A stretch of 64,000 nt of DNA, taken from positions 1 to 64,000 of the forward strand of contig JAKPNN010000008.1 of NCBI GenBank assembly GCA_029548365.1. The letters run 5' to 3'. Every line of letters starts with the position of its first letter. The first letter of the stretch is position 1. This DNA comes from Chloroflexota bacterium (lineage in GTDB: Bacteria; Chloroflexota; Anaerolineae; Anaerolineales; Anaerolineaceae). Position numbers and translations under genes: made by a program. Shown here one piece after another: positions 13,875 through 14,509 of this stretch. The notes beneath the pieces are model-generated. The model searched no databases, was not told where the DNA came from, and saw nothing but the letters and a program-made list of their open reading frames with translations.

Positions 13875-13900
13875 CAGGGGCACGGCATGCCGTGCCCCTG
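13875..13900. repeat. REP-like palindrome, copy 1
   Basis: A perfect 26-bp palindrome built on the arm CAGGGGCACGGCA. It lies between the lipoprotein stop codon and the end of the RAYT gene. The same 20-bp core (arm GGGCACGGCA) occurs twice more within 640 bp. Confidence 0.85.
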
Positions 13901-13909
13901 TTGTAATTG

Positions 13910-14437
13910 TTATCCCTTGAAACTGTTTTCATCATCTTCAAGCCAGTTGTATGGATTAGAAATGAGATAATCATAAACTGCCTGTAACCCATCGTCATTG
14001 CGGATAACATGTTCATAATAATTACGTTGCCATACTTTTCCACCTGGAGTGTTGCGGAATAGGTTTACTCGTCGGGTGACCTCTGACTTAAACGACCGTA
14101 CGATGGTTGGGATTGAACCGGGCACCGGTTTTCTGAATGTTTCAAGTAGGGGCACGGCATGCCGTGCCCCTACAAGTTCAATGATGCCATGGATGTGGTT
14201 TGGCATAATTACAAAATAATCCACATTTGCTTGTGAAAAATGTACAGGGATCGATTGCCAAACCTCTTTTACAATCAACCCGATTGGACTTAAGTCCATT
14301 TCTCCTTGATCAATTTTTCCAAAAAGGTGCTCTCTATGATAAGTTCCAATGGTGATAAAATAGGCTCCTTGCTGGGTGTAATCATATCCCTGTAAGCGAA
14401 TAGATTTTCGTTGTGGGTGGAACTTACTTTTTCTCAT
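13910..14437 (-). CDS. REP-associated tyrosine transposase (RAYT, Y1 family)
   Basis: The 175-residue protein is a Y1 (HUH) single-strand transposase of the RAYT type. Such enzymes cut and rejoin DNA at REP hairpins. Visible features are YFITIGTYHREHLFG near the start, the HUH motif in MPNHIHGIIEL (residues 78-88), WQRNYYEHVIRN (about 139-150), and the C-terminal helix with the likely catalytic tyrosine in YDYLISNPYNW. Residues 89-97 (VGARHAVPL) are the translation of a 28-bp REP-like palindrome inside the gene. The frame stays open through it. Two more copies flank the gene. Typical RAYTs are 150-230 residues, so the length is normal. Confidence 0.9.
   Translation of the reverse strand: MRKSKFHPQRKSIRLQGYDYTQQGAYFITIGTYHREHLFGKIDQGEMDLSPIGLIVKEVWQSIPVHFSQANVDYFVIMPNHIHGIIELVGARHAVPLLETFRKPVPGSIPTIVRSFKSEVTRRVNLFRNTPGGKVWQRNYYEHVIRNDDGLQAVYDYLISNPYNWLEDDENSFKG
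14146..14173. repeat. REP-like palindrome, copy 2, inside the RAYT coding sequence
   Basis: A perfect 28-bp palindrome with arm GTAGGGGCACGGCA. It begins with GTAG, the tetranucleotide recognised next to the REP hairpin by the E. coli RAYT. It encodes residues 89-97 of the transposase without breaking the frame, just after the HUH motif strand. Confidence 0.9.
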
Positions 14438-14489
14438 CAGGGATTTATTGCTAATGGTGTCAACAGGTTAATAGGTGGGTAAATAGAAA

Positions 14490-14509
14490 GGGCACGGCAT
14501 GCCGTGCCC
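14490..14509. repeat. REP-like palindrome, copy 3
   Basis: A perfect 20-bp palindrome with arm GGGCACGGCA, 53 nt upstream of the RAYT start and 24 nt after the end of the next lipoprotein gene. The flanking bases (AAAG / CCTG) show it is a shortened copy of the same element. Confidence 0.85.

Follow-up and report, generated by a model that had tools for sequence, protein, structure and literature searches.

A REP-type palindrome read in frame within a RAYT-like gene of Anaerolineaceae, and enzyme residues that track its inner stem

The 64,000-nucleotide stretch of a Chloroflexota genome analyzed here (the window) contains a gene for a RAYT-like protein that carries a perfect palindrome in frame. 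We predict from sequence comparisons that this internal palindrome is most likely a real REP of the window enzyme, and it appears to be cognate because its inner bases fit the enzyme's recognition residues. The innermost bases of such hairpins appear to be predicted by two patches of the protein, one on either side of the insert (residues 63, 66, and 67, and residues 111-119). RAYTs and REPs are already known; the embedded target and the code that relates it to the enzyme are apparently undescribed in the open-licence literature.

The RAYT-like gene and its palindromes

An earlier note on this DNA had proposed a RAYT gene, and the HUH, Tyr, and Asn residues and the fold of the encoded protein bear this out at the level of RAYT-like. 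The protein has both histidines of the HUH motif (His81 and His83), Tyr157, and Asn161; an HUH motif and a Tyr with an Asn four residues on are the marks of RAYT (TnpA_REP) proteins. We take Tyr157 to be the catalytic tyrosine by comparison with the E. coli enzyme. Among 27 aligned sequences H80, Y156, and N160 are invariant and H82 nearly so (A1 numbering, which is the gene numbering minus 1). The best fold match of the predicted structure is 4er8 (rank 1, E 2.7e-7, TM 0.60/0.63), which shows E. coli TnpA_REP in complex with a REP hairpin and is also the sole structure found by a profile of the protein sequence; TnpA_REP and IS200/IS605 transposases make up the fold matches. NF047646, the RAYT model of NCBIfam, matches the protein at E 1.6e-18 and 67 bits, below its curated equivalog cut-off of 80, and in a control search it gave matches in 6 of 14 genomes, above the cut-off in one. 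The name "RAYT-like" is therefore based on the fold and the REP association, not on this cut-off.

The three copies of a perfect palindrome claimed around and inside the gene are exact: the 20-bp GGGCACGGCATGCCGTGCCC occurs at 13878-13897, 14150-14169, and 14490-14509, and this triplet was found in none of 100 dinucleotide shuffles of the window. About 2e-6 perfect 28-mer palindromes are expected per gene of this size, which together with the shuffles rules out a chance origin. REP-type palindromes flank the gene on both sides, as had been described and as is characteristic of RAYT genes; 8 nt separate the downstream copy from the stop codon, and 52 nt the upstream copy from the start codon. 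The flanking copies have the ends CAGGGG..CCCCTG and AAAGGG..CCCCTG. The GTAG noted next to the hairpin is thus present in the internal copy only, and both flanking copies are without this foot.

The internal copy lies in frame, as the earlier note had it (Table 1). As single-stranded DNA it is predicted to form a 12-bp stem with the loop CATG (z about -7 on both strands), and its inner stem class is the one that matches the recognition residues of its gene. Its placement in the loop that directly follows the HUH strand agrees with the predicted structure, where model confidence is below 50 in the middle of this loop and the next helix spans residues 109-128 of the gene product (108-127 of the model).

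Table 1. Positions of the RAYT-like gene, its motifs, and the associated palindromes in the window
Feature	Position	Strand	Remarks
RAYT-like gene (REP-associated tyrosine transposase), 175 aa	13910..14437	-	ORF, profile, fold
First recognition patch, codons 63-67 (IPVHF)	14237..14251	-	residues 63, 66, 67 track inner stem
HUH motif His-Ile-His, codons 81-83, strand directly before internal-REP loop	14189..14197	-	
Internal REP, 28-bp perfect palindrome GTAG-N20-CTAC, codons 89-98 (VGARHAVPLL)	14146..14173		inner stem class GCA
Second recognition patch, codons 111-119 (TIVRSFKSE), helix after loop	14081..14107	-	residues 111, 114, 115, 118, 119
Downstream flanking palindrome CAGGGGCACGGCATGCCGTGCCCCTG, without GTAG foot	13876..13901		
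Upstream flanking palindrome GGGCACGGCATGCCGTGCCC, without GTAG foot	14490..14509		

The palindrome is a low-copy repeat in its own genome (48 contigs, 71% complete). Eight places lie within 3 mismatches of it, three in the window, four in a tandem array on contig C33, and one on C15, so it is found elsewhere, a point on which its standing as a repeat had been said to depend. The array on C33 (L004, 1406-1887) consists of a 107-bp unit repeated 4.5 times with window-type REPs. The second RAYT gene of this genome (L010, 1318-2100, on contig C48) contains a different element of about 104 nt with two hairpins, read in frame twice, once close to the N-terminus and once in the post-HUH loop. These two copies are 87% alike, and a 69-base piece of the element has 20 matches in the genome.

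A hot spot after the HUH strand

Within its order, 186 of 301 genomes encode relatives of the window protein. The first set was drawn from the listed matches to about E 5e-34 and from further loci including the best 80 of 499, and is not a random sample; after exclusion of 5 of 136 and 4 of 80 loci for stops or lost starts, and of 4 more as repeats, it holds 203 genes. The later set holds 81 (112 loci minus 20 repeats of training genes, 6 with stops, and 5 without a usable HUH), with 60 of its stretches drawn among the matches listed. Three relatives from viral contigs were added to the later pool and are not among the 30 genes used to test the predictor described below; five plasmid records with relatives were left out of the counts. 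Pooled, these are 284 distinct relatives from the window's order and phylum and from named genomes of many phyla.

Hairpins with exact arms of at least 10 bp occur in the post-HUH loop of 167 of the 284 genes, compared to 21 before the loop and 8 after it. In the first set the loop has them in 130 of 203 genes (24.1 kb), the part before the HUH in 14 (48.6 kb), and the part after in 3 (25.3 kb); the later genes give 37, 7, and 5. Only 30 of 4060 codon-shuffled loops have such arms. Of the 130 loop hairpins, 103 have a short loop and 27 a longer one, some of the latter being REPIN-like pairs by eye. A palindrome (score at least 9) lies 5-40 residues downstream of the HUH in 75 of the 133 first-set genes where this motif is recognizable.

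A scan of one genome per species across many phyla (best 80 of 499 candidates) found a loop palindrome with a score of at least 10 in 38 of 80 loci, including Desulfuromonas, Nitrospira, Brocadia, Microcystis, Chlorobiaceae, Melainabacteria, and Fluviicola. Relatives across the order, the phylum, and other phyla rule out a peculiarity of the window's own genome. A loop hairpin with arms of at least 10 bp is missing from 73 of 203 and 44 of 81 genes, so the hairpin is not required. The earlier note had asked whether homologues without the palindrome carry the same loop encoded by other DNA; their loops differ widely in length (8-45 aa, one 88 aa) and are thus not one loop written in unrelated DNA.

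A few internal REPs are located elsewhere in RAYT genes, in a beta hairpin, the N-terminus, or a C-terminal extension (L146, L048, L176, and L110). In six loops (L092, L114, L120, L124, L127, and L191) the arms of hairpins GGGCGAAGC... are 33-46 nt apart, which gives the impression of DNA inserted at the tip.

Conservation of the DNA and turnover

A best-centre scan of the 203 loops gave 151 with a score of at least 7; 80 of these have perfect 14-bp arms, 16 have such arms with 1-2 mismatches, and 55 have shorter arms or more mismatches. GTAG..CTAC feet occur in 79 of the 103 short-loop hairpins, with lengths of 28 (58 genes), 29 (20), and 27 (1), and there are 46 distinct half-stems among these 79 genes. 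The GTAG is in frame 0 in 50 genes, in frame 1 in 29, and in frame 2 in none, because a TAG stop would arise there. The window 28-mer itself is read as VGARHAVPL in the window gene and as RGTACRAPT in L016, L022, L028, and L170. The varied stems and the two reading frames of one 28-mer therefore indicate that the DNA is conserved rather than the peptide, and the latter observation led us to reject a conserved peptide.

Decayed or partial internal copies are common. A left GTAG foot is found in 116 of 203 loops, with all 13 of 13 pairs in 65, 11-12 in 14, and 10 or fewer in 37, some of these 37 being long-loop hairpins. L044 (62% identity to the window protein) has the left half of the REP inside the gene and an intact 28-mer in its flank, and L047 has the right half only. 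In the post-HUH loops of L035 and L064 the right half of the internal REP is duplicated in tandem and in frame. At L070 (801-1927; genome G168, contig C38) there are tandem RAYT genes, an intact one with an internal REP and one with a stop codon, which reads VGARHAVPQ at the matching place without an intact palindrome.

Between the window gene and its nearest relative, L015, the REP is identical at 27 of 28 bases and the third positions of shared residues elsewhere at 48% (nucleotide values from L251 onward are unreliable in this comparison, and the pair L009/L015 alone was used). On the tree the internal REP shows at least 44 presence/absence changes (shuffled mean 59) and the stem type 52 changes (shuffled 68). 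The internal REP thus appears to be partly inherited and partly turned over. Within the stem we counted 137 compensated, 16 one-sided, and 2 uncompensated changes, a biased count restricted to copies that retain 11-13 of the 13 pairs, with non-independent gene pairs and some REPs at different places. Some compensated changes occurred in place, as in L098/L100.

Residues associated with the inner stem

Residues 63, 66, and 67 and 107-119, all outside the REP codons, show an association with the inner stem of the internal palindrome. The association is concentrated at residues 50-77 and 104-127, and there is hardly any along the HUH strand, in the C-terminal helix, or in the first third of the protein. 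An association of residues 91-94 was disregarded, their codons belonging to the REP itself. Residue 115 is Ser with GCA in 23 of 24 cases, Ala with GCG plus one unpaired base in 8/8, Gln with CCG plus one in 6/6 and with CCA in 3/3, Thr with ATA in 3/3, and Gly with CGG in 6/6. Met118-Asn119 goes with TCA (10/10) and Phe119 with TCT plus one (6/6). A single residue is insufficient, as Ala115 is also found with TCG and TCT, and the TTG and even-length GCG classes are mixed at 115.

In a leave-one-out prediction from eight sites, which were chosen from those same data, 60.2 of 102 stems were right when training genes were below 60% core identity. The nearest relative gave 8 of 102, and random core sites a mean of 8.3 and a maximum of 13.6. 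With training genes below 50% the result was 38.5 of 102. Unselected spans of 12 residues gave 41-46 of 102 at 104-121, 28-32 at 58-75, 16-17 at 122-139, and 5-12 within 10-57, 70-87, and 134-169; spans overlapping the patches were in between.

With sites and method fixed beforehand, the predictor was right for 26 of 30 new genes, compared to 2.6 at random and 2 by the nearest relative. The advance statement named the phylum sample only, and the other test loci had been fetched earlier and not yet looked at; the phylum sample gave 22 of 24 and the additional loci 4 of 6. The test genes include near-twins (L343/L347, L254/L263, and L253/L255). Three of the four misses were one base off the prediction. 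Stricter identity limits gave 23/30 and 13/30 (nearest relative 5 and 3), the latter reflecting a drop in accuracy below 50% core identity. Phylogeny as the whole cause of the code is ruled out, given that the nearest relative by the rest of the protein was right for 8/102 and 2-5/30.

For genes without a short-loop internal REP the code fits the flanking palindromes in 6 of 19 cases (random 1.5). Supported independent pairs numbered 2-4 per test, a number too small for significance, with no contrary pair in most draws. In the E. coli enzyme K82 of the corresponding helix contacts the REP stem, according to the part of the biochemical study consulted (PMC8266576); it aligns with residue 118 in one MAFFT run and with 114 in the other.

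The gene's own REP family

For 29 of 79 genes the variable half-stem of the internal REP is found again in the 700 bp on either side of the gene, compared to a permuted mean of 5.5 and maximum of 11 (a variant permutation ignoring identical REPs had a mean of 4.6 and a maximum of 12). Among the best 80 of 499 loci, REP-type palindromes with a score of at least 12 number 22 in 42.6 kb of the gene (0.516/kb) and 18 in 70.6 kb within 500 bp of it (0.255/kb), and fall to 0.00-0.05/kb farther away; gene and near flank differ at p 0.03 on small counts. The genomes of twelve relatives have 5-35 GTAGGGGC..GCCCCTAC pairs each, 188 in total over about 43 Mb, at least 11 of which are inside RAYT genes by a hand tally among the matches listed, where well under 1 is expected by length.

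In about 1.03 Mb of other ORFs of at least 100 aa (same best 80 of 499 loci) we found 15 GGGGC-type palindromes with a score of at least 12, against 38 of 80 RAYT loops at a score of at least 10. This rarity in other ORFs, with the density near RAYT genes, rules out REP insertion into genes generally. Neighboring ORFs of 1278, 794, and 590 aa at L179, L150, and L189 hold REPs that share the stem of the nearby RAYT.

Mosaic genes

In some gene pairs both ends are 67-89% identical and the patches 10-31%. Where both ends are at least 65% identical, the stem class is shared by 0 of 115 pairs with patches below 40%, 2 of 32 at 40-60%, 21 of 49 at 60-80%, and 13 of 15 above 80%. Third-position identity of the HUH strand is 0.52 in 21 mosaic pairs versus 0.70 in 52 matched pairs, all of them non-independent. 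Block exchange of codons 50-125 is only suggested by these comparisons.

Proposed explanation and alternatives

We consider it probable that the internal palindrome is a genuine REP, that it is the cognate target of its own enzyme and is read at the tip, and that it is kept by the linkage of target and reader. Once single-stranded DNA has folded into the hairpin, the RAYT would read its tip, made up of the loop and the innermost 3-5 stem bases, by way of residues 63, 66, and 67 and 111-119, and the GTAG foot would serve cutting, by analogy to the enzymes of E. coli, Stenotrophomonas, and Marinomonas. REPs may frequently enter and leave the site between the HUH strand and the recognition helix, either moved by the enzyme itself or carried along when segments of the gene are exchanged. 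An internal REP would be retained where the adjoining target and reader are inherited, transferred, and exchanged together, and the loop peptide may be dispensable.

The main rival is that insertion is passive and happens where an active enzyme and a tolerant loop coincide: REPs hop mostly near the RAYT gene, this loop accepts about 10 additional residues more readily than the rest of the gene, and the internal copy serves no function, being cognate only because the enzyme mobilizes cognate REPs. This is a real possibility, though on balance we do not expect it. It fits the enrichment of REP-type palindromes within 500 bp of the gene, the partial copies and frequent gain and loss on the tree, the REPs in neighboring ORFs and the few at other sites of RAYT genes, and the highly variable loop length. 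It accounts less well for a gene denser in REPs than its unconstrained flanks (a weak point at these counts), for the excess of perfect over slightly mismatched 14-bp arms (80 to 16), and for a REP almost unchanged between the window gene and L015 while third positions elsewhere have diverged. The earlier note left the palindrome as either tolerated or used; the fit of inner bases to recognition residues favors a real REP and goes some way toward settling that choice.

A strong hairpin on both strands, inside the coding region and of a class that fits the encoded enzyme, could also act in self-regulation, with the enzyme binding or cutting its own hairpin in single-stranded DNA or mRNA and so limiting its synthesis or activity. 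We regard this as unlikely, as many intact genes are without the hairpin and we know of no RAYT that binds RNA. Imperfect palindromes can be corrected by template switching during replication, a neutral process that would be expected to yield in-place compensated changes such as those of L098/L100; as the source of the stem covariation it seems rather improbable to us, and it leaves the site preference, the GTAG foot, the length of 28 or 29, and the fit to the recognition residues unexplained. Selection on the encoded peptide is very improbable: the intact genes counted keep the insert in frame, but one 28-bp sequence is read in two frames, half-stems are of 46 kinds, and model confidence is low in mid-loop. 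Our preferred reading remains that of a cognate REP kept beside its reader.

Relation to known systems

The window system resembles the RAYT (TnpA_REP) and REP systems of E. coli and Stenotrophomonas (REPtrons) in its HUH/Tyr enzyme, its REP hairpins adjacent to the gene, and its best fold match, 4er8. Unlike in a REPtron, the target here is within the coding sequence, beside the recognition helix; within E. coli rayT, no hairpin has exact arms longer than 6 bp. Group 3 REPs are perfect palindromes, as here, and the contacts of group 3 RAYTs can only be speculated about according to the consulted part of the 2021 biochemical study (PMC8266576), whereas here a residue-to-stem code is readable. 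REPINs are paired REPs, and by eye the loops of L119, L137, L140, L193, and L205 have inverted hairpin pairs with GTAG feet; unlike REPINs, these are in frame within the RAYT gene. A term search of the text of PMC3116915 on REPINs returned no mention of a position inside genes.

Rickettsia palindromic elements and intragenic REPs are likewise palindromic repeats read in frame (PMC3733652, PMC10969869, in the parts consulted). They occur in many unrelated genes, and RAYT genes are unnamed among the interrupted genes in those parts, whereas here the repeats are concentrated at one site of the gene for their own enzyme. Insertion of the Rickettsia type, in many unrelated genes, is not the pattern here, given the counts in other ORFs and in RAYT loops above.

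The closest working analogy is found in plasmids of the pT181 family, where, in the part of PMC5703833 consulted, the nick site is within the coding region of the initiator, the peptide encoded at that place can be dispensed with, and origin specificity is governed by a determinant of six residues. An own-gene target, a dispensable peptide, and a short specificity determinant are what the two would share. The pT181 system is a Rep_trans initiator with its replicon and the window fold is instead that of TnpA_REP/IS200/IS605, so we draw an analogy only and claim no homology. In the open-licence RAYT, REPIN, and REPtron literature we found no RAYT genes with internal REPs and no such code; an earlier mention elsewhere is possible.

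Implications for RAYTs and REPs

These findings bear on how RAYTs recognize diverse REPs and how new REP families arise. Genes that carry their target provide 132 labeled enzyme-target pairs (102 + 30) from many phyla, single out eight residues, and make unseen targets predictable at the rate of 26/30. The enzyme and its target may evolve as one unit. A further reading, to which we give slightly less than an even chance, is that this class of RAYTs consists of self-contained specificity cassettes, with the hairpin target between the halves of the recognition surface, that are swapped between similar genes, create new enzyme/target pairs in one step, and have a target readable from sequence. 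If true, it would explain how specificity changes without loss of the target, and would point to hairpin-specific single-strand nucleases of readable specificity.
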